28,577 bases of DNA, from the IMG/VR virus record IMGVR_UViG_3300031673_008691, positions 1 through 28,577 of that record; one strand, written 5' to 3'. Below, in pieces: positions 878-28,577 of this stretch; the stretch's first letter is position 1, and every line of letters begins with the position of its first letter. This stretch comes from a virus. The position numbers were made by a program, and so were the translations under genes. Under the pieces are notes generated by a model. It was given only the letters and a program-made list of their open reading frames with translations. It was not told where the DNA came from and did not search any database.

Positions 878-1831
878 ATGTCAGAAATGTTCGATTATAT
901 TTGGGCTCAGAAATATAGACCCAAACACCTAAAAGATATTGTATTGTCTCCTTCACATAGAAGTATGTTTGAAGGGTTTATTAAAGAAAAACAAATTCCT
1001 AATTTACTATTAAGTGGAAATCCTGGTGTGGGTAAATCTACATTGGCTAAGGTCTTAGTAAATGAGTTAGAATGCGATTCCCTATATATAAATGCGTCTG
1101 ATGAGACAGGCATCGATACAATCCGCTATAAAGTAAAAAACTTTTCAGAAACGCGATCATTTAACGGCGGGATTAAAATAGTTATTCTCGATGAAGCGGA
1201 TGGCTTAGGTGGTGTAATATCAGGGAGCAAATCTTCTGCACAACAAGCTCTCCGTAATGTAATGGAAGAGTATAGTCAGACTACAAGATTTATTCTTACA
1301 GCAAATTATCCAAGTAAGATTATTCCTGCTTTACATAGTAGATGTCAGCAAATTGAACTTGCACCACCTTTCGATGAATGTGTTAAGTTCTGTGTTAATA
1401 TACTAAAGCAAGAAAATGTTCAAATTGCCAAAGAACAAAAACCACTTCTTCTTAAATTAATCAAATCTCGTTATCCTGATATGCGAAAGATTATTAATAG
1501 TCTACAACAGAATACTGTTGATGGAAAATTGGTAATTCAAGATGATGCAGAAAGATTGCACGTTGCAGAAAAGGTTTTTAAATTAATTACCAATAAAAAA
1601 CCCCTTGAAGACATAAGAGCTTTTGTAATTCAGAGTGAAACTGAGTTTGGGGATTATCATGACTTTTTGACCGATATGTTTGAAGTAATATTCAAATCAG
1701 ATATAGAACAAAAGAAAAAAGCCCCGATGATGTTAGTAATCACCGAGGCAATGTATCGACATAATATTGTGATGGATCAAGAGATCAATGCTTATTCAGC
1801 CATCATCCAATTAAGTCAGATTGATCCTTAA
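878..1831 (+). CDS. gp44: Sliding-clamp loader ATPase subunit, T4 gp44-like
   Basis: This is an AAA+ ATPase of the replication factor C small-subunit/T4 gp44 type. In T4, gp44 forms the loader with gp62 and places the gp45 clamp on primer-template junctions. Visible signatures are the N-terminal W..KYRP (residues 9-15), Walker A GNPGVGKST (47-55), Walker B VILDEAD (102-108), sensor 1 TAN (141-143) and the SRC motif with the arginine finger (154-156). The length of 317 residues is close to T4 gp44 (319). The C-terminal part beyond about residue 230 would be the collar domain. A gp62 partner is not in this window. The 3' end overlaps the convergent minus-strand gene by 29 bp. No clear ribosome binding site precedes the ATG, so translation may be coupled to the dUTPase upstream. 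Confidence 0.95.
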   Translation: MSEMFDYIWAQKYRPKHLKDIVLSPSHRSMFEGFIKEKQIPNLLLSGNPGVGKSTLAKVLVNELECDSLYINASDETGIDTIRYKVKNFSETRSFNGGIKIVILDEADGLGGVISGSKSSAQQALRNVMEEYSQTTRFILTANYPSKIIPALHSRCQQIELAPPFDECVKFCVNILKQENVQIAKEQKPLLLKLIKSRYPDMRKIINSLQQNTVDGKLVIQDDAERLHVAEKVFKLITNKKPLEDIRAFVIQSETEFGDYHDFLTDMFEVIFKSDIEQKKKAPMMLVITEAMYRHNIVMDQEINAYSAIIQLSQIDP

Positions 1832-2645
1832 CCACTTGCCTCATTCGGTTAAACCCTATCCCAAACTTACGAGCCGCTTGGATTTCTGTTTTTCCGTTTT
1901 CTTTCATCCACTTAAGGGCTTTAGACACTCTAACATCCATCTCTTCTTCGTTTGGCAAGCCTCTCTCTTCACGGGATTTGCTTTTCACGGGATGGCGACC
2001 TAAAGATGTTGCTCTACAAGCTGCTGCAAATGATTCAGAGTAGATAGAAGCATATGCTTCGCTGATTAAGTCTTCGTCATTCTTTCGTTTACTTTCACCG
2101 AAAACTGTTTTTTCAGGAACACGGCCACCAGGTTTATCAACCCACCTATTTCCACCTTTGATCTTAGTATCCTTTTTAGGATTACTTCTATCTTTGTCTT
2201 TTGTTTCTACTTCTTCTGCCCCGTGGATGTTAGCTTTGTATACTTGGCTATCTGGAGGTGTTACTCTTCCCATAGCGTCTGGCGTATCTACCAATTCAAT
2301 TATCTCTGCAGGAACTGTAATGTGACAAGGATATAATCCAGGTGCTAATTCTTGTGTGATATCTAAATGAAAACCATTTGCCGCATTCATACCACCATCT
2401 ACTGGTGCTAAAGCAGGTCGGATTGATTTTACTGCAGATACCCTAAGATTAAGGTCAGATCCAGCAAAGTCATCGATTTTAGTTTTAACATGCTCTGATG
2501 CTTCTTTATAATGGTCTGAATTCTTGTAATTCTTAATGAATTTTACATAATCTCCGTTTACATAACCACCTTGTTGAAATCTTCCCACAGCTTGTTCAGT
2601 TAGCTGGCTGAATTTGCTTTTAAATTGATTTGCGAAATTTGTCAT
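1803..2645 (-). CDS. Protein of unknown function with possible C-terminal helix-turn-helix
   Basis: This is a 280-residue soluble protein on the opposite strand to its neighbours. The N-terminus (ANQFKSKFSQLTEQAVGRFQ, then GGYVNGDYVKF) is amphipathic with a possible small beta segment. The middle (about 145-200) is charged and Lys/Gly-rich, probably disordered. The C-terminus (about 244-280) contains MKENGKTEIQAARKFGIG followed by FNRMRQVVK, which fits a homeodomain-like helix-turn-helix. There is no signal peptide, membrane segment or enzyme motif. I do not recognise the family. The ATG at 2645 is preceded on the minus strand by GGAG ten bases away and by a perfect TATAAATA at 2677-2670, so late expression is likely. 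A virion-associated or DNA-binding role is possible but unproven. Confidence 0.85.
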   Translation of the reverse strand: MTNFANQFKSKFSQLTEQAVGRFQQGGYVNGDYVKFIKNYKNSDHYKEASEHVKTKIDDFAGSDLNLRVSAVKSIRPALAPVDGGMNAANGFHLDITQELAPGLYPCHITVPAEIIELVDTPDAMGRVTPPDSQVYKANIHGAEEVETKDKDRSNPKKDTKIKGGNRWVDKPGGRVPEKTVFGESKRKNDEDLISEAYASIYSESFAAACRATSLGRHPVKSKSREERGLPNEEEMDVRVSKALKWMKENGKTEIQAARKFGIGFNRMRQVVKDQSDLIG

Positions 2646-17227: not shown

Positions 17228-20200
17228 ATGGTCTTAAAATTACGCAATATTCAAACTACTACGGTAGACACAAATACATTTTCAGATGTTGAATTATCTG
17301 CATCTTATTATAATGACCTCGCATCTTGGTATAATATATCTGCAAACAATATTAACAATCTCGGTTATGAACCTAGCTTAGAATACCCGTTTCATTTAAC
17401 AAGCAACGTATTATCTGGTATATCTCCATTTGCTAATTTTAAATTTATTCCAGTTGTTGGAAATGATGTTACGGAAGTATGTATGACAATTGAAGACGAT
17501 TGGGTAGACAATCAAGTAACGACATGTTTATCTATACCTTCCATAAGCAATAAAACATACACCGAGAACATAACAGCAACTGTTGTAAACAATATAGAAG
17601 GAGTTTTCTCTGCAGGATATAACACACTTATTTTAAAAGATGAAGATGTATTTTATAAAGAGTTTAATATTGTTTGGGATTCTTCTCTAAACCCCACATG
17701 GGGCATTTACAATAATTTTATTTCTCAGCCACTCTATGGTGTTTCAATAGATTTCGTGATTGATAATAACACATTATATGCTGTTTATGATTTTTCATCT
17801 TCTACTACATTAGGCCAACCTTTTAATAATAAATGGGACATTAAATCATATGGTATAGGGGACACTTTTCCTGAAGAAACACCCAATAAATTCGCTACAG
17901 ATATAATAAACAGCGAAGGTGTTATTTCTGGCAAAACAACAGTGGCCAGTATTCCAGTTTCCGCTTTGGGTTTATTTACAACAGTTTCTCTTTCATCAGA
18001 ACTAGGTGTAGACAGATACAACACAATTCACACAGTCAGCAATTCAGGTGAGTTTAAGTATACATATAATGAAATTTCTACAAATACAAACGCTCCTATC
18101 TTATCTGGCGAAATAGTGGGAGATACGTATAATTTTACAGTTAGTTGTGATTTACCGTGTCTTTATAAAGCTTATACTTTTACTAAAGACTCTTTTAAGA
18201 AACACAATTTAAGTAAAATTGAAATTGAAAATTTATATCCTCCAACAGATATTTTACAATCAACAATAGATTCTTTTAATCAATATGGAGCTCAATGGTA
18301 TACCATTATATCCAGCGGAGACAATGTAGAATTAAACAGGATAGTTGGAATCTGGGACACAAATTCTGATGAGGTTACATACACAAGCATACAGTCGGAA
18401 AAGACAAATAACTTCAACGCAAATTATATTTTAGCACATCTTAAAAACGATAATATTGGTATAAAATTTACAGAAGGTAACACATATTGGAACATCGATG
18501 GTTTTCGCTTTGATTTTAATAATGCAAGCCCTTCTGATGTCTTCTCCTTTAAAGGATATGAATTAATATCTTCAACACAAACCATAATTGATAGAATAGG
18601 CATTAACGACACAAATGCGGTTGTGTGGGATTTAAAAGCAAATACTTTTCTTAATGATAATGTACAGAAAACTCAAATAGCGACAATATGGCCTAATAAC
18701 AACGTTTCATATAATTATACAAATATTATTAATAACAAAGAAAATAATATTGAACAGTTATTTACTCCAACTATAAGTTCAGACGGACAATATATCTATC
18801 TATTAGGCAACGCAGAGTATAACTATTCATTGGAGGGATATCGTACATCTGTAAATAATCTTAGCTCCTTTACACGAAATGTTGATGATATAGTTATAGA
18901 AAATGGTGACGGTTATCTTCTAAATTCAAGCCCATATACAAACAATTTATGGACGGTTTATGCAAGCGGTGAAGAAGGACAATTCCTGGCAGAGATAACA
19001 AGTAATAAAACAAATAGCCAATTTAAAATTCTTACTAACAATTTTCCTACAACCTCTGTCGAATTTGATGTACAGTCCATTGGGCCAAATTATGAATTAT
19101 ATATTACAAATCCAACATCAACATTTTGGAACATAACGGGGTATAGAATTGACGACAGGGCAGCAGCATTAAATACCCTCCAATCCTTCGGTTCTGTTGA
19201 ATTGGAAGAAATAAACACATATAGCAACTCAGCTGAAAATTTACCAGATAGACGGTTTTTAATTACAGCTGAAAAGGAAGACGGGATATACCACACACAA
19301 CTTATTGATTATATTTGGTCTCCTTATTTCGGATATGTCAACGATACTACTAATTATATCAATTCCACAAATACTTCTACTACGTCCCTCTGTGAGTATA
19401 GAACAAACACAAATGTTATTCCATATGAAACATTCAATGATGGAATATTAAGCATTGGACTTTCATCAACGCAATATAGTTGGGATTTGTCGTATATAGA
19501 TGTTACAAAAGAACTTGCGAAAATCTCAACTAATATAAACAAAGCTTCAATAATTGATGAAGATTATTTGTTTGATTACACCTTTTCTCATCCTGGATTA
19601 TTTTCTGCTAGTTTATCTTCGTCAAATGAATCTATTGCATATGAAAATTTAATTACAGTTGAGGACATTGCACCACAAATCATGTTGCACTTTTCTACAT
19701 CTGCCACAACAACCATTGAAGGTGAATTTTCTGCGGCACCTTCAGAAGACTTTTTATCTTACTACGATACATCTTATACAAATCCCATTTCTGCACCGTC
19801 CAATCAACTTTATTTTACCTTTGCTAATACTAAACCAGGGTCTTTTCCTATTTTTGATATATCTATTGATTGGAACGATGGTTCGGGTATTACAAGTGTT
19901 ACAAGAGAAGGTGTTGCAAATATAGGAAATAATACTCGTATATTTGAACTGTCTACATTATTTCAAACAAATATAGATGATGTAAGAAGATATTATTTTT
20001 GGCATGAATTTCCTTCTTCAGATGAAACTTTTATTGTATCTGTTTCTGCTCGCAATCTTGACACATTGAACACTTCAACCGAAACGTTTATTATCACAGG
20101 GTTTCAAGGCATTACAGAACCTGTTGGTGTAAATAAGAGATTAATTAAATCTAATTTGCGGTCGGATAATAGCATGATATATAATATTCAAACCGACGAT

Positions 20201-21217
20201 GTATTAAATACAAATCGTCCAGTTGGATATATTGAATATGATTTATCAGAACCTTATGCAGATATTTTCTCTTGTTCTGTAAGTAGTATTTTAATTGAAG
20301 CTCTTGAATATGTAGATGATGATTTAAGAATCAGAATTAATGATTCTGTTATTTCAGACACACAATACAACATAGCATGGTACTCTGGTTTTGATTATGT
20401 TTCAAGTAAAGACGTTGATTTTAGTCAACCAGATAATTTTAGAAAAATTTTACTTACTTCTAATATATTATCAGGTGCGGGACCAGGCGATGTGGTATAT
20501 ATAGACACCTTTGACGGATGGGCAGGAGCAACAATTCTTGTCCCTTGGCAGGCTACCATAACATATAATACAGGTGCCGTGTATATGTTATCAGGAGGTA
20601 TGAGTTATACAGGAAGTTCTTCAACTTCTTCAACTTCTGCAATACCTAACTACTATACAACCGGGCCATATTTATTTGATTACTATGAAAATGGTAATTT
20701 TATTATTCCTTCTTGCAGTGAATATTCTTCCACATTACCCGGAGATTCTGTCACGCCAGATTTATCATCTCTTCCTAACCCCCCGTTAGCACCTACAGTT
20801 TGTCCTTGTACGATTGCAAACCCTACTGGGTGGCCCTGTGGTGGTCTTACTGAGACATATACTATAACGCAATGGGAGTACTCATATGTAAGTGGTGCCA
20901 ATACTCGCATATGGCGCTTAAAAACACCACATGTAGTTACAAGCACAGTTAAGTGTTTATACTCAGGAGCTACCTATGCCGATGTAGAGGTGTCTCTTGA
21001 TAGTGGAGCTACATGGACAGATTCAACCAATGTTTATATAACAGTAAACCTTCACGCAATACTTGGATGGACAGTAATTGCTCAATTAGACCTTGTACCA
21101 AACTTTATTGAGGTGCACAAAACAACAGGATTAAATCCAATAGGTTCTTATAGTGAAAATGTAAGATACAACAGCGGTGTTACAGGACGTATGAATACAG
21201 CAAGTGTAACACAATAA
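17228..21217 (+). CDS. Large virion structural protein with three tandem repeats, PKD-like domain and distinct C-terminus
   Basis: A 1329-residue protein starting 11 bp after the previous stop, with only a weak ribosome site (ATAAG). The N-terminal 350 residues are beta-rich and unrecognised. Residues about 355-650 contain three tandem copies of a roughly 100-110-residue domain, each ending in a conserved motif: YWNIDGFR (420-427), YNYSLEGYR (531-539) and FWNITGYR (633-640). Residues about 815-965 look like a PKD domain, with DISIDWNDGSG around Trp882 and a later strand FIVSVSARNLD. A Ser/Thr linker (SSSTSSTS, about 1130) leads to a 190-residue C-terminal domain with a Cys/Pro cluster (TVCPCTIANPTGWPCGG) and less AT-rich DNA than the rest. 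No catalytic motif is seen. A baseplate-attached fibre or spike component is the likely role. Confidence 0.82.
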   Translation: MVLKLRNIQTTTVDTNTFSDVELSASYYNDLASWYNISANNINNLGYEPSLEYPFHLTSNVLSGISPFANFKFIPVVGNDVTEVCMTIEDDWVDNQVTTCLSIPSISNKTYTENITATVVNNIEGVFSAGYNTLILKDEDVFYKEFNIVWDSSLNPTWGIYNNFISQPLYGVSIDFVIDNNTLYAVYDFSSSTTLGQPFNNKWDIKSYGIGDTFPEETPNKFATDIINSEGVISGKTTVASIPVSALGLFTTVSLSSELGVDRYNTIHTVSNSGEFKYTYNEISTNTNAPILSGEIVGDTYNFTVSCDLPCLYKAYTFTKDSFKKHNLSKIEIENLYPPTDILQSTIDSFNQYGAQWYTIISSGDNVELNRIVGIWDTNSDEVTYTSIQSEKTNNFNANYILAHLKNDNIGIKFTEGNTYWNIDGFRFDFNNASPSDVFSFKGYELISSTQTIIDRIGINDTNAVVWDLKANTFLNDNVQKTQIATIWPNNNVSYNYTNIINNKENNIEQLFTPTISSDGQYIYLLGNAEYNYSLEGYRTSVNNLSSFTRNVDDIVIENGDGYLLNSSPYTNNLWTVYASGEEGQFLAEITSNKTNSQFKILTNNFPTTSVEFDVQSIGPNYELYITNPTSTFWNITGYRIDDRAAALNTLQSFGSVELEEINTYSNSAENLPDRRFLITAEKEDGIYHTQLIDYIWSPYFGYVNDTTNYINSTNTSTTSLCEYRTNTNVIPYETFNDGILSIGLSSTQYSWDLSYIDVTKELAKISTNINKASIIDEDYLFDYTFSHPGLFSASLSSSNESIAYENLITVEDIAPQIMLHFSTSATTTIEGEFSAAPSEDFLSYYDTSYTNPISAPSNQLYFTFANTKPGSFPIFDISIDWNDGSGITSVTREGVANIGNNTRIFELSTLFQTNIDDVRRYYFWHEFPSSDETFIVSVSARNLDTLNTSTETFIITGFQGITEPVGVNKRLIKSNLRSDNSMIYNIQTDDVLNTNRPVGYIEYDLSEPYADIFSCSVSSILIEALEYVDDDLRIRINDSVISDTQYNIAWYSGFDYVSSKDVDFSQPDNFRKILLTSNILSGAGPGDVVYIDTFDGWAGATILVPWQATITYNTGAVYMLSGGMSYTGSSSTSSTSAIPNYYTTGPYLFDYYENGNFIIPSCSEYSSTLPGDSVTPDLSSLPNPPLAPTVCPCTIANPTGWPCGGLTETYTITQWEYSYVSGANTRIWRLKTPHVVTSTVKCLYSGATYADVEVSLDSGATWTDSTNVYITVNLHAILGWTVIAQLDLVPNFIEVHKTTGLNPIGSYSENVRYNSGVTGRMNTASVTQ
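18290..19166 (+). repeat. Three tandem ~100-110-residue protein repeats in the 1329-residue gene
   Basis: Three consecutive stretches share a layout: an opening strand (QWYTIISSGDN; VVWDLKANTF; LWTVYASGEEGQ), a second strand (RIVGIWD; QIATIWP; FLAEITS), a polar Asn-rich loop, a strand near NDNIGIKFTEG / DGQYIYLLGN / NYELYITNP, and a closing W/Y-N-x-x-G-Y/F-R motif. The closing motifs lie at residues 420, 531 and 633. Conservation is at the protein level only; the DNA copies have diverged, so the duplication is old. Confidence 0.6.
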
Positions 21218-21221
21218 AAAA

Positions 21222-23384
21222 ATGAGTAATAAATACACATCAGTAATATACCTTTCTTCAGGAAACGATTATCTAAATTCGTCTCCGGCATCATCTATTG
21301 TGCCTTTACAGCTTAAAGATATTAATGATGACAATATTGTATTCAATCAAACAAGAACAACATTTAAGGATGGTTATTCGGTTTACCAGTCTGAAATGTT
21401 AAAAAACGCAAAGGATGTTAAATATAACCACGATTCTTTAATATGGTTAACTTCCTCTTTTGACCAAAACGAATTCCTAACTAAAAACGCCAGTTTAACT
21501 CTTCCTGTAGATTATCTAGATAAGTTAGGTTTTTTATATACAAAAATTGCTATTAAAGTAGGAACATCTACAAACCCTTCTTATATATCAAATATTAATA
21601 ATACTCTTGCTCTTGCAGACTCTATAGATAATGTTACTCTTTTTAAATTAACAAAAACAGAAAGCAACACGCTTAAAATATCAGATAATAACTCATATTT
21701 AACAATAAACAAAAATAATTTAGAAATTACTTTTGAATCTGAATCATCAGACGAAAATAAAATACAAGAGTTTAAATACAAAATAGATAGAAATTCTATT
21801 TATTTTTACTTTCAACATGAGCTGGGTAAAAAGTTTATTGGTATAAAAAACGACCTGTCGTTTTACGCCAATGGTATCAATTCTTCAAGATATGATAATG
21901 TGTCAATTCTAACTAATAATAGTGTTTACAAAGAAAAGAACTGCGAGTTTATGTTGATCAATAGTTTATATTCCACTTATCAACTTGGCAATTTATATGA
22001 AAAAAATACGTCATGGGTTCATTATTATAAGGAACTTGCTGATAAAGAAAATCTACTCAATGTAGAAATTAACGAACCAAAATCTTTTCATAGTGTTCGA
22101 GTTAATAATCTAATTATTTCTCCATACGAATCTACAATAGATATTGCCTCAGAATCTATTAATATTAATCATCTTCCTCTAAAGAATATGATGACGCCTG
22201 AGCAGAATTATACTATTGAACCAAAGAGAAGAGAATATAATAAAATATTTACAGGTGATAAAGATGACACTGGCTATGAAAAAACAATTCTTTCATATGA
22301 AGCTGATACAAAATTACAAATACTAGATGTAAATAAAGATACATACTTTCATTATCCGTTCGAGGCCCCTCAAATTGCTCTTTCAGCATCTGGGTTAATT
22401 GAATCCGGTGCACTTGCTGGTAGCACACCATTTAACTCTGATAAAATATTCAAGAAAAATGCAAAATATGAAGACTTTATGTATTGGGGTGAAAGCAAAC
22501 AAATATTTGGGTGTGATGATGGTGTTTGGCTTTGTGCGTGGCTATCAGGTAGCAACGGTTCTTCGTTTGAAGGTCTCGATAACTCAATTTGGATAGACAG
22601 GTGGTATGACCCCTCTAAACTAACAGAAGAAACCGCTCTATCATTGGGATATAATACATTTAATCTGGAAACCAAAACACCTGTATTTTTCGATGTGCCT
22701 AGTGAGTTAACATTTGACCCAGGTGCTTATTACTATTATCACCGCACTGGAAACGACGATATTAAAGTAATAACTGATACTTTTAATTTAGGCAATACAG
22801 CACTTAGACTTCAATTTAAAGATAATTGGGGCACCGATACTGAAGATTTATCACCATATGCAAACACTGGTAAAATTGACAATTTTAATAGCGAAGATAT
22901 TATTGATGTCGGGCCTGCATATGGTTCATTAAACCAAAAATCTATTTTATTGTCTGACGATAATTATATTTCAGTACCACAATCAGATTCGTTGGATTTG
23001 TCTGGCTCATTTACTCTTGCTACTTGGATTTATTCTAACAACTGGAAAAATAACCCAGGTAGCGATATAATATCAACCAATTTTAGAAGTGGTGCTAAAA
23101 TTAATTATTCAAACAATTTCTTCACACCTATCGTGGGTATTATTGAAGATACTTATGCACATGTTGTTCAACATACACAGTGCAATCCAAATTCAGATAC
23201 TAAAATAACATATATACAAGATGATTTAACAACGGGTGAATTTGGTATAAGAACACCGTTTGACTGGACATGGTTTGGTACAAGCACAGAAGGTGCGAAT
23301 CCAATTACGTGGCAGCAATTATTAGATATAGACCCCGATAATAGATACACATTTGCTTATAGCACTACTGCTACCACACTATAA
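21222..23384 (+). CDS. Virion structural protein ending in the N-terminal half of a LamG domain
   Basis: A 720-residue protein starting 4 bp after the previous stop. Residues 1-380 are beta-rich and unrecognised. A Trp/Gly-rich segment (FMYWGESKQIFG, CDDGVWLCAWLSGSNG, DNSIWIDRWYDP) follows at about 415-470. Residues about 528-649 form the first half of a LamG/concanavalin-like domain: LRLQFKDNWG, SPYANTGKID, NYISVPQSDSLDLSGSFTLA followed by TWIYSNNW, then IISTNFRSGAKINY. The WYH..LTYD half normally next is missing. From about residue 650 the sequence becomes an unrelated 71-residue tail (ending YAYSTTATTL in effect) and stops. The missing half occurs in the 568-residue protein two genes on. 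The stop codon TAA is part of a TATAAATA late promoter for the next gene. The protein probably belongs to the baseplate or fibre system, and may be a truncated remnant of a longer one. Confidence 0.8.
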   Translation: MSNKYTSVIYLSSGNDYLNSSPASSIVPLQLKDINDDNIVFNQTRTTFKDGYSVYQSEMLKNAKDVKYNHDSLIWLTSSFDQNEFLTKNASLTLPVDYLDKLGFLYTKIAIKVGTSTNPSYISNINNTLALADSIDNVTLFKLTKTESNTLKISDNNSYLTINKNNLEITFESESSDENKIQEFKYKIDRNSIYFYFQHELGKKFIGIKNDLSFYANGINSSRYDNVSILTNNSVYKEKNCEFMLINSLYSTYQLGNLYEKNTSWVHYYKELADKENLLNVEINEPKSFHSVRVNNLIISPYESTIDIASESININHLPLKNMMTPEQNYTIEPKRREYNKIFTGDKDDTGYEKTILSYEADTKLQILDVNKDTYFHYPFEAPQIALSASGLIESGALAGSTPFNSDKIFKKNAKYEDFMYWGESKQIFGCDDGVWLCAWLSGSNGSSFEGLDNSIWIDRWYDPSKLTEETALSLGYNTFNLETKTPVFFDVPSELTFDPGAYYYYHRTGNDDIKVITDTFNLGNTALRLQFKDNWGTDTEDLSPYANTGKIDNFNSEDIIDVGPAYGSLNQKSILLSDDNYISVPQSDSLDLSGSFTLATWIYSNNWKNNPGSDIISTNFRSGAKINYSNNFFTPIVGIIEDTYAHVVQHTQCNPNSDTKITYIQDDLTTGEFGIRTPFDWTWFGTSTEGANPITWQQLLDIDPDNRYTFAYSTTATTL

Positions 23385-23387
23385 ATA
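23380..23387 (+). promoter_or_regulatory. T4-type late promoter element TATAAATA
   Basis: A perfect TATAAATA spans the end of the 720-residue gene, its TAA stop being bases 23382-23384. The next ATG is at 23405, 17 bases on, and a strong Shine-Dalgarno (AAAGGAAA, about 23392-23399) lies between. Spacing therefore allows a short leader carrying the ribosome site, the usual arrangement of T4-type late promoters recognised by the gp55 sigma factor. Chance matches to this 8-mer occur elsewhere in the window inside genes; here the intergenic position and the ribosome site support function. Confidence 0.65.
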
Positions 23388-23404
23388 TTTTAAAGGAAAA
23401 TAAT

Positions 23405-24067
23405 ATGACAACTTACTTACAATGCATTAGTGCAATCGATGAAACAGAAAGAATTGGGGATTCTTTAGATAAAATAAATGGAAATTTTTTATGTTTAGAT
23501 TCTGCAGTTGAATCTCTTAGCGGAAGTGTAGATATACAAATCAACAATTTACAAACACAGGTAACAACACTATCTGGTGATTTTAATAATCTTTCTACGT
23601 TTGTATCCACGAATAGTTCAAAATGGCTTTCGGTGATATCTGTTTTTAACGCATATCAGGAGTTTTCCGGAATTAATATGTCAAAGAATGGATATGATAT
23701 TAAGTTTACTACAGGTGAACAAATCATGACTTCTGCGCCAGCGACATACGATTCAGGAACAGGAATGGTAACCATCCTCGAAGATGGCTGGTATGAGCTT
23801 CATGGGAGTGTTAGATTTGGACTTGGAAGTTATGCCAACCAAAATAATAATCTTACATGGGACGTGCGTTTACGTAAAAATGGTTTCGATGCTTCAATGG
23901 GATATTCTTCTATTCAAGATCATACCTCTTCGGGTGGTGGAGATACATTTGTTACTGTTAAAGCAAATGCAGGTGATACATTTAACCTCGTATTTTTTCA
24001 CGAAATCAATTCAACATTTCCTTTAATCTATGGTGCTTTAAGTATTAAAAAAATTGCTGACTTTTAA
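23405..24067 (+). CDS. C1q/TNF-like trimeric fibre or decoration protein
   Basis: A 220-residue protein with its own late promoter and strong ribosome site. The N-terminal part (about 10-75) is a likely trimeric coiled coil: IGDSLDKINGNFLCLDSAV, then SVDIQINNLQTQVTTLSGDF with heptad-spaced hydrophobics. The C-terminal 130 residues fit a C1q-like jelly roll: MVTILEDGWYELHGSVRFG (the usual 'aGvY.f..s' strand), WDVRLRKNG, DTFVTVKANAGDTFNLVFF and a last strand IYGALSIKKI. Such domains form compact trimers that bind ligands and are found on phage fibres and capsids. The KINGNFLCLD segment resembles the helical repeats of the 708-residue protein downstream. Base composition looks less AT-rich than the flanks. 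The stop overlaps the next ATG as TAATG. The binding target is unknown. Confidence 0.82.
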   Translation: MTTYLQCISAIDETERIGDSLDKINGNFLCLDSAVESLSGSVDIQINNLQTQVTTLSGDFNNLSTFVSTNSSKWLSVISVFNAYQEFSGINMSKNGYDIKFTTGEQIMTSAPATYDSGTGMVTILEDGWYELHGSVRFGLGSYANQNNNLTWDVRLRKNGFDASMGYSSIQDHTSSGGGDTFVTVKANAGDTFNLVFFHEINSTFPLIYGALSIKKIADF

Positions 24068-25773
24068 TGAGTAATATAAATGGAAATATAGTAGCATCTA
24101 TAGTAAATGATGATTTATATACATTTGCTTTAGATACTAATTTATCTTACCTCCAGAAAATAGAATATTCTGGAGAGATAGTTGATTCTCTTAGTTTAAA
24201 AGAGGAATCGACATTCTCTGTAAAAAATAAATTCGGCAATTATTCTCTTGCGCTTGATGCAAATGAAATGATTAGAGTGTATGATATTGCGTATTATTGG
24301 CTATATAAAATAAATCCAGAAAATTTAGAAATTAGTGAAAGACTTCAAATACAATCAGGCCGAGGGCAAAACTTTACAATCGACCTACATAATAATATCA
24401 TCATAGGCAATTGGGAGTCAGTAGCAGTCGATGAATATAATAGGATTTATACAATCGAGCAAGCAGATACATTTCCTGATGTTTCATTCTCGACATATCC
24501 AAACAATGTATATAGATATGACCTTTCAAATGTTTCATCATCAGATTCGGTTATATATTTAAACGACTATCAAAAACAAGATATAGTAGTTGTAAATGAA
24601 TTCTATGAAGACATCACATTTAATATATTTTATAAGAATTCACAAAATTTTCAATTACTATCTAAACCATTCAATCCCCAAACATTGGTTATCACAAAGG
24701 ATAACTATTTATGCGTAGGAAACGATACAGCAGAAATTCTTAAATTAAAAATATTCTCAGACTATATTTTATATAAAAACACATACAATATTTTCAACCC
24801 ACAAATTTGTACTGGAAAAAACTTTGAAGATATTTCAAGCATAAACGGGTTAGAAGAATATGTAGACACACCTCTTTGGAGTGAACTTTCTGCGACCAAT
24901 TTAAACACAATTCAATTTGCTGCAACATATGAACAAAGCAGTGAAAAGGAACAAGATGATTTTTTCTGGATTATTGATTCGAATAATAAAATTTTAAATA
25001 AGACAGATTCGTCTTTTGAAAGAGTTGCTTGTTTTTTCTTACCTGATTCACTTGACCCTATTAATACATCAGATGAAGACTTTATGTCTTATAGTTTTAC
25101 CAAACCTCCGATTACAGCTTATGACTGGCATAGGAAGTATACATGGATTAATGGTGGAAAATTGGATAATAACTTCTCAGCTTCTGTATATACTCTTTCT
25201 GGTAATAATATATCAAAAAATACCCTATCTTCTTCTACTCCGCTTTATGACAAACAATGGTATCATATTGCTCTTACATACGATAAGCCTTCAGGCGTGT
25301 TGAAAATGTATTTAGACAACATATTAGTGAGTGAAAAAGTAATTGATGCAAATCAGGACGTATATAACTTTTTTGACAACGGGGTTGTAATAGGTGCAAC
25401 ACAACTAAAAACAGGTACAATAAACTCTGAATTGAACTGCAATATGTATAGTTTTAATGGGCAAATTTATGATACAAGAATATATGATTATGAGTTAACA
25501 CAAAGCAAATTAGCAAATATCATTCTTGAATCTATAAAAATTGAACCAATTGAATGGAATATTCAAGTCAACAAGAGACAGTATATGGAGCAAATTGAGA
25601 GGTTCTTTATGAATAGAGTACCAGGCAATGCTAGCCAATTTTATAAGATTAAATTATCAGGATTTGATATTACAGACCAATCTATTAAAAACACGATTGA
25701 GGAGATTGTTAAACAAAACATCGAGCGCATCTCTCCTGCTTATACAACTTTATATGGGATTGAGTGGGAATAA
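24067..25773 (+). CDS. Virion structural protein: propeller-like region plus C-terminal half of a LamG domain
   Basis: A 568-residue protein coupled by TAATG to the C1q-like gene, with no ribosome site of its own. Residues 1-310 look propeller-like: YTFALDTNLSYLQKIEYSG, YWLYKINP, SVAVDEYNRIYTIEQ, FWIIDSNNKILNKTDSS. Residues about 394-480 are the second half of a LamG fold (QWYHIALTYDKPSGVLKMYL followed by DNILVSEKV, then GVVIGATQL and FNGQIYDTRIYDYELTQSKL). The first half of a LamG domain, with its SFTLATW strand, is absent here but present at the end of the 720-residue protein. Residues about 490-568 are a separate conserved-looking end (QYMEQIERFFMNRVPG, SGFDITDQSIKNTIEEIV, IERISPAYTTLYGIEW) that may be the anchoring part. 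Together with the 720-residue gene it looks like one ancestral gene in two pieces. Confidence 0.82.
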   Translation: MSNINGNIVASIVNDDLYTFALDTNLSYLQKIEYSGEIVDSLSLKEESTFSVKNKFGNYSLALDANEMIRVYDIAYYWLYKINPENLEISERLQIQSGRGQNFTIDLHNNIIIGNWESVAVDEYNRIYTIEQADTFPDVSFSTYPNNVYRYDLSNVSSSDSVIYLNDYQKQDIVVVNEFYEDITFNIFYKNSQNFQLLSKPFNPQTLVITKDNYLCVGNDTAEILKLKIFSDYILYKNTYNIFNPQICTGKNFEDISSINGLEEYVDTPLWSELSATNLNTIQFAATYEQSSEKEQDDFFWIIDSNNKILNKTDSSFERVACFFLPDSLDPINTSDEDFMSYSFTKPPITAYDWHRKYTWINGGKLDNNFSASVYTLSGNNISKNTLSSSTPLYDKQWYHIALTYDKPSGVLKMYLDNILVSEKVIDANQDVYNFFDNGVVIGATQLKTGTINSELNCNMYSFNGQIYDTRIYDYELTQSKLANIILESIKIEPIEWNIQVNKRQYMEQIERFFMNRVPGNASQFYKIKLSGFDITDQSIKNTIEEIVKQNIERISPAYTTLYGIEWE

Positions 25774-27899
25774 TGTCACAATTACATTTATATAACGCGA
25801 CACCTTATATTCCTGCTGGTCAGGAGGTAACATTTAATCTTTACATGTCTGCAGTGAACAAGACAATTACAGAAAAGGAATGGATTTATTTTAATGACTC
25901 ATCTCCTTTAACAGCTACTCAGGTTTTTAGTACTAATTATGGTCCTGTTTCTACTGATTCTGTTTATTTAGAAGTTTCATATAGTAATGATATATATGGT
26001 ACGATATCTCTGTTGATGTCTTCAGTGGGAAGTTCTTATTTAGAAGGTGTTCCAAGTATAGTTCTTACCGACCCAACTGCAGTGTTCACCCCAGCCCCTT
26101 CAGCTTATTTGGAAGATAGTGGCAGAGTAACACTTGTAACTTTGGGTGATGTATATTCTTCTGCATATGATAGTGGCATTACTAGAATCGCAATTTCCGA
26201 AGGATATATAGTCCCAGACTATTTTACGAATAACTTCAAAGCCGATGATGTTACAATTGACTATGGAGACGGAAACGTTGTTTTATTCACATATTACGGT
26301 GGTCCTGCTGATACATTTACACATACGTTCTCTTCCACAGGTATTTTTGATTTACATGCAAGTGTTTCAACATCAACGGAAACAATTACACAAGATTTTT
26401 CTGCATATATTAACATCATCAATGATGTTTCGTATGCCTCTGAAAATGTTATTAGAACTGGTTATAACGATAATATTAACTTACCCAACCCTATTTGTAA
26501 TATCCCAGTTAATGAATTTGTCTCTCACGAACCCATTAATCAAATTTTCAAGAAACTTTGGGATAATTTTATTTATTTGCAAGATATATCAAAATTATAT
26601 CAAACAGCCCCACAAGATTATATAGGTTGGGGTCATTTAACCTCCACAAAAGATATTAATTGGCACACAAATACATTTTCAGCAAGTACAATTCCCATTT
26701 CTTACGAGTTACCCAATATTACACATATAATTGCGAATAAGGATAAGGGAACATTTATATCTCTCACTGACAGAGTTAGAGAATATAGTCACACGCTTGA
26801 CACTACTGATGTTTTATACAATACAATATCTCCAAGTGGCGTCGCCTCCACAATTTCAATCAAATCTTTCGATGTTGCAAAAAACGGGAATATCTACATT
26901 CTTGACGCAAGAAAATTATTAATATATGTTTATAAATTCAACACATCTTTGAATGATTATTTTCCAACTATTCAATGGGGTGGTCTCGGTGGGGTTGCAG
27001 GATTAACTAAATTTTACAAACCGAATGATATCTATATTAAAGATAACAATGTTTATGTTACAGACTCTGGAAATAATTGTATCAAGCGCTTTAGTTTGGG
27101 TGGACAATGGGGACATACATATCAAGATGAAGTTTTTTATGGGGGTGATATATTAAAAAACGCCCCTGTATCTTGTACTACAGATTTAAATAACGATATA
27201 TATGTTTGCAATCAATCCACAATTGTTAAATTTAGTTATTCTGGAAAAAAACTCTGGGAAATTGACATCACCACAGAAGCAGATTCGACAAATATAGTTT
27301 CTATACGCAGTGCTTTAGGATTTATCTATGTTCTTACAGAGAATAAAATACTGAGGTATTTATCAAATGGTAAGTTCACTAATTCATTTGCAGACAAATC
27401 TTCAAAAATTGCTACATATAAATCTTTCCACATAAACGAAGATTATAATTTATATATTAATACAGGTGAAATAATTTTACATTATGTAGATTACCCAGTA
27501 CTATTCAACGCTCTTGTAGATACTTCTTACATTCCGTTTGATGATATAAAAATTAAACCAGATGAATTTGTTACATCATTAACTTATAATAAAGCATTTC
27601 ACAGATTGTATGATAATTTTAAATTTCTTTATCATTCAATTGAGAGCAAAATAATCAATAATTCTGATGGATCACTTTCAATTGAACCAATGTCAAGTTG
27701 TGATAGTCTTTCGCTTGGTGGACTTCCCATAAGCAAAGACGAAATTTATATAGGACTAAATGAAATTGTCACACCAGAAGTAATGAATAGATGCATTGAT
27801 AAGTTATTAACAATACAACAGTTTCTGCTTGATATTCTTATGAATAAGTATTCAAGGTGCATTACGGGGTCGGTTGAAAGTTTTGAAAACAATAACTAA
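25773..27899 (+). CDS. Virion structural protein: PKD domain, six-bladed NHL-like propeller, three helical motifs
   Basis: The start is taken as ATG 25773 (708 residues) because it overlaps the previous stop as TAATG; an in-frame GTG three codons earlier (25764) is less likely. Residues about 95-215 form a PKD domain with TIDYGDGN around Asp163-Gly167 and a closing strand GIFDLHASVSTS. Residues about 305-590 form a propeller with six recognisable blades, for example FDVAKNGNIYILDARKL, the canonical PNDIYIKDNNVYVTDSGNN, and CTTDLNNDIYVCN. A 26-residue helical motif ([ND]E[FI]V[ST]x4Nx5Lx6L) occurs three times without gaps, at residues 247, 597 and 663, so the propeller is inserted between copies. 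This suggests a structural protein with helices that dock in the baseplate and a propeller projecting outward. No enzymatic residues are seen. Confidence 0.83.
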   Translation: MSQLHLYNATPYIPAGQEVTFNLYMSAVNKTITEKEWIYFNDSSPLTATQVFSTNYGPVSTDSVYLEVSYSNDIYGTISLLMSSVGSSYLEGVPSIVLTDPTAVFTPAPSAYLEDSGRVTLVTLGDVYSSAYDSGITRIAISEGYIVPDYFTNNFKADDVTIDYGDGNVVLFTYYGGPADTFTHTFSSTGIFDLHASVSTSTETITQDFSAYINIINDVSYASENVIRTGYNDNINLPNPICNIPVNEFVSHEPINQIFKKLWDNFIYLQDISKLYQTAPQDYIGWGHLTSTKDINWHTNTFSASTIPISYELPNITHIIANKDKGTFISLTDRVREYSHTLDTTDVLYNTISPSGVASTISIKSFDVAKNGNIYILDARKLLIYVYKFNTSLNDYFPTIQWGGLGGVAGLTKFYKPNDIYIKDNNVYVTDSGNNCIKRFSLGGQWGHTYQDEVFYGGDILKNAPVSCTTDLNNDIYVCNQSTIVKFSYSGKKLWEIDITTEADSTNIVSIRSALGFIYVLTENKILRYLSNGKFTNSFADKSSKIATYKSFHINEDYNLYINTGEIILHYVDYPVLFNALVDTSYIPFDDIKIKPDEFVTSLTYNKAFHRLYDNFKFLYHSIESKIINNSDGSLSIEPMSSCDSLSLGGLPISKDEIYIGLNEIVTPEVMNRCIDKLLTIQQFLLDILMNKYSRCITGSVESFENNN
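26511..27839 (+). repeat. Three dispersed copies of a 26-residue helical motif in the 708-residue gene
   Basis: Copies begin at nt 26511, 27561 and 27759. Aligned without gaps they read NEFVSHEPINQIFKKL, DEFVTSLTYNKAFHRL and NEIVTPEVMNRCIDKL, each followed by a helix whose seventh residue is Leu. Shared positions are acidic/Asn 1, Glu 2, Val 4, Ser/Thr 5, Asn 10, Leu 16 and Leu 23. Copies 1 and 2 also share DNF at 18-20. The first copy is separated from the second by the whole propeller; copies 2 and 3 are 66 residues apart. Confidence 0.65.
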
Positions 27900-27989: not shown

Positions 27990-28577
27990 ATGTCCAATCA
28001 ATTCCATTCTAAATACCACCGACACAACCACCACACAAATCCCACAATAGGTGAGAGAGATTCAGCAACAGACCCAATAGCATCACCTTCAGATCCTTTT
28101 CAAGGTGACTTTATAATTAACGGTGGACTAAGTGCAACATCTTTAACCGCGGTAGACATATTTACCACAGATATATTCACAACTAGTATTTCAGCTACAG
28201 AGATACATGCAATATCTTCTTATACTCATTACCAAGACATTTTAGTTTCTGAACTATCGGGATTTAACGTCACCGGGGATGTAACTATTGAAGGCAGCGT
28301 TAGTATGACTGGATGCTTGTCTACTGATTGTATCAGACCAGCATCTACATTAACTACACCCATTTTAGTTCATTCTAACTTAGATATGATGGGCTATAGT
28401 ATTTCAGGGATCGGGAACAATAGTTTAACGTTTGAATCCGGTTTGAAGATTTCAAGTGATGAACGGGCCAGATTTAGAGCGCCTACTGCATATTCTACTG
28501 CTTTTGGAACAGCATCAGCTTATGGTTTGCTTTCGTTTGCGGAAGGGTCTGCAGCAATCGCCATCGGTGTTTCTAGC
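27990..28577 (+). CDS. Partial fibre/adhesin with His-rich N-terminus and YadA-like head repeat
   Basis: The frame opens with ATG at 27990, seven bases after GAGGA, and continues for 196 codons to the window edge. The N-terminus has five His in ten residues (FHSKYHRHNHHTNP), then DPIASPSDPFQGDF. Next come short repeated strands rich in Thr/Ser (SLTAVDIFTTDIFTTSISAT), a beta-solenoid-like pattern (GDVTIEGSVSMTG), and at the right edge ATAYSTAFG-type sequence turning into FAEGSAAIAIG. That last pattern fits the head repeats of trimeric YadA-type adhesins, in which S-x-A-x-G units recur. The protein is therefore probably a trimeric tail fibre. The C-terminal part, often an intramolecular chaperone in such fibres, lies outside the window. 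The His cluster may bind metal, as His pairs do in T4 fibre tips, but here it is N-terminal and so perhaps at the attachment end. Confidence 0.75.
   Translation, partial: MSNQFHSKYHRHNHHTNPTIGERDSATDPIASPSDPFQGDFIINGGLSATSLTAVDIFTTDIFTTSISATEIHAISSYTHYQDILVSELSGFNVTGDVTIEGSVSMTGCLSTDCIRPASTLTTPILVHSNLDMMGYSISGIGNNSLTFESGLKISSDERARFRAPTAYSTAFGTASAYGLLSFAEGSAAIAIGVSS

Follow-up and report, generated by a model that had tools for sequence, protein, structure and literature searches.

A LamG-propeller gene of a T4-like phage, probably split by an adhesin-like insert

Results

The viral contig analysed here very probably records an insertional gene fission, in which a cassette of virion-type sequence recombined into a gene encoding a LamG domain with an inserted beta-propeller, and in which both halves of the interrupted gene were kept. 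In the relatives this gene is one long open reading frame (ORF). In the contig its two parts are found in a 720-aa and a 568-aa ORF, and a complete gene of different origin lies between them.

Window and gene order

The analysed stretch (hereafter, the window) comprises all 28577 bases of an IMG/VR viral-contig record. Genes for dUTPase, clamp loader and baseplate wedge (gp6 included) point to an uncultured T4-like phage as the source; they precede a series of very large genes. The position and domains of these large genes suggest that their products belong to the virion. A 280-aa ORF without an NCBIfam match (positions 1803-2645, minus strand) sits between the clamp loader and the baseplate genes.

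The region of interest consists of three ORFs on the plus strand, in the order, at the coordinates and on the strand given in a preliminary description of this DNA: the 720-aa ORF (21222..23384), i.e. the first half of the split gene with a new tail, which is homologous to the relatives up to residue 649; the 220-aa inserted gene (23405..24067); and the 568-aa ORF (24067..25773), i.e. the second half. They are flanked on the same strand by a 1329-aa gene upstream (17228..21217) and, downstream, by a 711-like gene (25773..27899, its ATG at 25773) and a partial ORF at the end of the window (27990..28577). All three flanking genes are collinear between the window and the viral-contig locus L120. 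The 711-like protein of the window is shorter than most of its relatives (about 850-1609 aa) and matches mainly their C-terminal part; the same region is made up of two ORFs in L123 and in L133.

The gene is a single ORF in the relatives

When single virion proteins were used as queries, neither phage records nor viral or genome contigs yielded a close relative of the window. The gp6 query did reach relatives, among them L002 in the 170-kb record G001 (41% identity), and a gp6 profile collected 488. The C-terminal part of the 568-aa type was found in 15 of the 50 gp6-relative records searched, each time within a single long ORF. A profile of this part found 126 loci in viral contigs, of which 80 were kept. 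The N part of LamG and the 568-type C part lie within one ORF in 77 of these 80 loci, and the propeller lies between them in all of these single-ORF loci except L156, which the propeller profile did not match. A search of bacterial and archaeal genome contigs returned no member of the LamG family.

The three exceptions have simple explanations. L126 and L150 are truncated at contig ends. L122 (L122:3049-5825) shows three frames and was considered as a second split case; this was rejected, as it differs from the intact L121, to which it is 99.9% identical, by two 2-bp indels, which are most simply sequencing or assembly errors. The loci and contigs scanned did not include a close relative that is split in the same way, so that the split is a single case.

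The 1154-aa ORF of G001 matches residues 36-641 of the 720-aa protein and residues 283-568 of the 568-aa protein, and it aligns end to end with residues 1-649 of the former joined to the latter. In other words, a relative's ORF that follows the 720-aa protein to about residue 649 and runs on into the 568-aa protein, for which the preliminary description had proposed to search, does exist. The nearest collinear relative of the window is L120, in which a 1329-like gene is followed by one 1100-aa ORF matching both the 720-aa and the 568-aa proteins, then by a 711-like gene and by a 196-like gene that matches the last, partial ORF of the window (E 1e-33). The sole difference in order is that in the window a middle gene is located within the LamG gene. 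These single ORFs lend support to the earlier proposal of an ancestral single gene, a LamG domain with an inserted propeller, cut by a roughly 0.9-kb cassette.

In the tree the window is placed on a long branch near the fused members L120, L123, L133 and L156, at a fork that is not strongly resolved. Accelerated evolution was considered as the reason for the branch length (1.42) and was rejected, as gp6 is distant to a matching degree.

In G001 a 949-aa ORF (L006:11313-14162, minus strand), which by eye resembles a subtilisin-type protease with GHGT and GTSAA-like motifs, adjoins the intact LamG gene. In the same record, 294- and 417-aa ORFs that look glycosyltransferase-like by eye (L006:1182-3321, minus strand) lie downstream of an adhesin-like array. 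Extra material is also seen within intact LamG-propeller genes: there are in-frame inserts with DUF4183-like repeats (L156:2650-6666) and with an extra propeller segment (L121:3886-6666), and about 158 extra residues are found within the C half of LamG in L176:2698-6672 and in L177. The gene looks like a hot spot for inserts.

One LamG domain and one propeller are divided between two proteins

Residues 1-328 of the 720-aa protein (21222..22205, plus strand, as are all segments given below) form a module that has its own gene (about 315 aa) in many relatives and is fused in others. It is followed by a conserved domain ahead of LamG (residues 329-524, 22206..22793, boundary approximate), by the N-terminal half of LamG according to Pfam and the model (residues about 525-634, 22794..23123), and by the first strands of propeller blade 1 according to alignment and model (residues about 635-649, 23124..23168). 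In the 568-aa protein, profiles, alignment and model place the remaining propeller at residues about 9-345 (24091..25101); the C-terminal half of LamG, seen by Pfam and the family profile, follows at residues about 346-482 (25102..25512), and a conserved C-terminal domain at residues 483-568 (25513..25770). The preliminary description had LamG continue to about residue 649 of the first protein; it ends near residue 634, and residues 635-649 are propeller strands.

The two halves are complementary in terms of the Pfam family Laminin_G_3 (PF13385, curated cut-off 27.6 bits). Positions 3-39 of the family match the 720-aa protein weakly (E 0.017, under the cut-off) and positions 59-149 match the 568-aa protein (E 1.4e-10). 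Once the propeller is removed and the two pieces are fused, a single match extends over positions 3-149 of 151 (54.8 bits, E 1.6e-14), as one would expect if a single LamG domain is divided over the two proteins, which is what had been proposed. The score also rises in three intact relatives from which the propeller was removed in the same manner.

Read together with Pfam, an AlphaFold2 model of L120 (residues 314-1100, pLDDT 87.9, pTM 0.79) begins with an N-terminal domain and the LamG N half, continues with the propeller and closes with the LamG C half and a C-terminal domain. The earlier suggestion of a propeller inserted in LamG agrees with this model, which places the propeller between the two LamG parts. 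The intact-relative model has a propeller fold (Z 27 to 1l0q_A), and the 568-aa protein modelled alone gives a propeller (Z 17) followed by a less certain remainder that includes the LamG half. A BFVD entry, A0A6J7X8W6, is a structural match to the LamG-propeller proteins. We note that the LamG assignment rests on Pfam, since propellers fill the lists of solved-structure matches and LamG is not named there.

The position of the break

In the alignment to the window halves, the corresponding stretch of L120 reads FFTPIVPTFDTTYGHVI-LSNNDNSILTDTLIPISGAVYAD-PVAILIDKNLFTWVLD. The homology of the 720-aa protein to L120 stops at FFTPIVGIIEDTYAHVV and that of the 568-aa protein restarts at VASIVNDDLYTFALD. 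Between HVI and PVAI, i.e. across the break, L120 has 23 residues, of which MSNINGNI in the window accounts for at most 8; the loss from the host gene at the insertion is about 15-23 codons. Solved propellers align from model residue about 293-296, and the break corresponds to model residue 309. Because the propeller alignment begins before this position, the break lies inside the first blade, and therefore both nested domains, LamG and propeller, are divided between the two proteins.

The N-terminus of the 568-aa protein (SIVNDDLYTFALD) had been described as resembling the segment GIIEDTYAHVV at the end of LamG homology in the 720-aa protein. The two are different segments: they align to successive stretches of the intact relative, 23 residues apart, and their pairwise score is no better than that of shuffled sequences (p 0.32). 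They look like equivalent strands of successive blades.

The insert

The insert covers about 23169-24090 (922 bp). Its left part (23169..23384) encodes, in frame with the 720-aa ORF, a foreign tail of 71 residues and the stop; the tail does not align to the LamG family, which bears out the view that it is unrelated to this gene. Across every ORF in the 80 loci, in L006 and in the window, a motif of the tail, WTWFGTSTEGANPITW (23265..23312), has its only counterparts in PKD-type proteins, whose genes lie upstream of LamG in the relatives. The octamer TATAAATA (23380..23387) matches the consensus of T4 late promoters; it occurs once on the plus strand of the window, where the count is at chance level. 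The late promoter reported between the two halves is thus a consensus match. Its use as a mark of the inserted-gene family was rejected, as the difference is not significant (8/91 against 12/274, p 0.12).

The N-terminal module of the 220-aa protein belongs to a family with the pattern GDSLxxINxNF (BLAST E 4e-7 to L178) that has 91 members by profile in these loci. The genes occur in arrays of up to three, which typically follow directly on the LamG gene or come after the 711-like one, and we infer that their products are adhesins. The gene next to a family member on its downstream side often starts with MSN or MS after a short spacer or an overlap. The C-terminal part had been labelled C1q-like; a search of Pfam, NCBIfam and PDB sequences gave no C1q match, so that the label describes the look of the sequence only. 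The stop of the 220-aa gene overlaps the start of the 568-aa ORF in TAATG (24065..24069), and two more gene borders in the window show this junction. The searches turned up no homologue of the insert as a whole, and the tail and the middle gene, searched for a donor, gave no match.

Short similarities were noted around the insert. The first codons of the 568-aa ORF share direct repeats with two places, the last part of the foreign tail (23337-23358/24109-24130) and the INGN motif of the inserted gene (23470-23485/24072-24087). At the protein level, DNRYTFA at the end of the tail resembles DDLYTFA at the start of the 568-aa protein (p 0.01-0.03 by shuffles). The repeats are weak; they may be traces of the recombination or may have arisen by chance. 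Their interpretation as a target-site duplication was rejected, as the size of the matches was estimated to be at chance level for AT-rich DNA.

Conservation of the two halves

The divergence of the halves was compared with that of gp6 in 14 relatives. When identity is set against gp6 identity, the N and the C half of the window both fall on the line of the intact genes, with mean residuals of -0.0 and +0.2 % identity (sd 3.7 and 3.6). Neither half diverges beyond the gp6 expectation. Both halves are open and their divergence is compatible with constraint, which is a weak test if the split is recent, since intact halves would then say little on function. A mosaic origin of the two halves was also considered; there is no sign of it, and both show similar identities to the same relatives.

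Discussion

Origin of the split and fate of the products

The proposed course of events is as follows. The ancestor would have been one gene of about 1100 aa, consisting of the N-terminal module, LamG with the inserted propeller and the conserved C-terminal domain. Recombination among virion-type genes would have introduced about 920 bp within the first propeller blade, with a loss of about 15-23 codons. The insert would have supplied a new tail and stop for the first half along with the late-promoter-like site. It would also have delivered a complete adhesin-like gene, the stop of which overlaps the new in-frame start of the second half. The ATG and first few codons of the 568-aa ORF may have been taken over from the beginning of the gene that came next in the donor. 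Both halves would be made as virion proteins, and translation of the second half may be coupled to the inserted gene via TAATG.

We consider it rather probable that the 720-aa and 568-aa proteins re-associate in trans and rebuild the LamG sandwich and the propeller, as this is the most economical reason to keep two incomplete halves of two domains; the absence of extra divergence is compatible with such reassembly. For the fuller arrangement, in which the two chains jointly rebuild both nested domains on the particle and the adhesin-like insert is co-expressed with them, we see an even chance.

The fission may also be real and its products may never rejoin, the 720-aa protein being a structural piece and the 568-aa protein a lone propeller with a C-terminal anchor, while the LamG halves are vestiges or are closed in some other way. 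We regard this, which bears on the last step alone, as the main rival and as less probable than reassembly. It is consistent with the propeller of the 568-aa protein being predicted without a partner and with the LamG half being the less certain part of that model; on the other hand, both LamG halves retain family-level identity and profile scores, with no visible decay.

Two further explanations concern the split itself. The window is a metagenomic contig and a second split was not found in the loci scanned, so the apparent split could come from a misassembly of two related contigs. This is improbable: the first half reads on in frame into the tail, the 568-aa ORF begins at TAATG like other borders, third-position GC is even across the insert and both flanks are collinear with L120. 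That the insert is an intron or a similar element, removed at the RNA level so that one protein is still made, would suit a sequence lying between two parts that elsewhere form one ORF. We give this next to no credence, as the insert holds stops, a gene of its own and a new start, the host gene has lost about 15-23 codons, and Pfam, PHROGs and NCBIfam detect no homing endonuclease in the insert. In addition, an Rfam search of the window that covered the intron families gave no match at or above a gathering score, although a divergent intron would escape this search.

If insertional fission with reassembly in trans is what took place, then a single recombination step converted a one-chain virion component to a multi-chain assembly. 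The case suggests that recombination of virion-type genes can break a structural gene inside its folded domains without visible decay. The pair is a candidate natural split protein, and the intact relatives provide a control.

Comparison with known split genes

Split genes are known from T4-like phages, e.g. nrdA in Aeh1, the topoisomerase gene in T4 and gene 43 in phage 25 (PMC2988022; also PMC10448857). In these splits the parts are separated by homing endonucleases or by an untranslated insert, and for the products of nrdA and gene 43 there is evidence of working assembly (PMC2988022). Within the family studied here, the LamG-propeller proteins of the uncultured T4-like phages L120, L124 and G001 have the same modules, order and neighbours as the window, and differ in that each is encoded by a single ORF.

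The closest likeness is to nrdA/mobE of Aeromonas phage Aeh1 (Friedrich et al. 2007, in PMC2988022): both phages are T4-like, and in both a gene that relatives have in one piece is divided into two ORFs by an inserted gene and the halves are kept. The Aeh1 nrdA halves make a working enzyme (PMC2988022). In Aeh1 a homing endonuclease lies in an enzyme gene, while in the window an adhesin-like gene and a foreign tail lie in a virion-type gene, and the split cuts two nested domains. The mobA-associated gene 60/39 of T4 and the split gene 43 of Aeromonas phage 25 are similar in that the splits are linked to insertions, and their products assemble; unlike the window, they concern enzymes, and the inserts are homing endonucleases or untranslated sequence (PMC2988022). 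The kind of event is already known; what appears to be new in the window, judged against open-licence papers, is an insert with no recognisable endonuclease, located in a virion-type gene.
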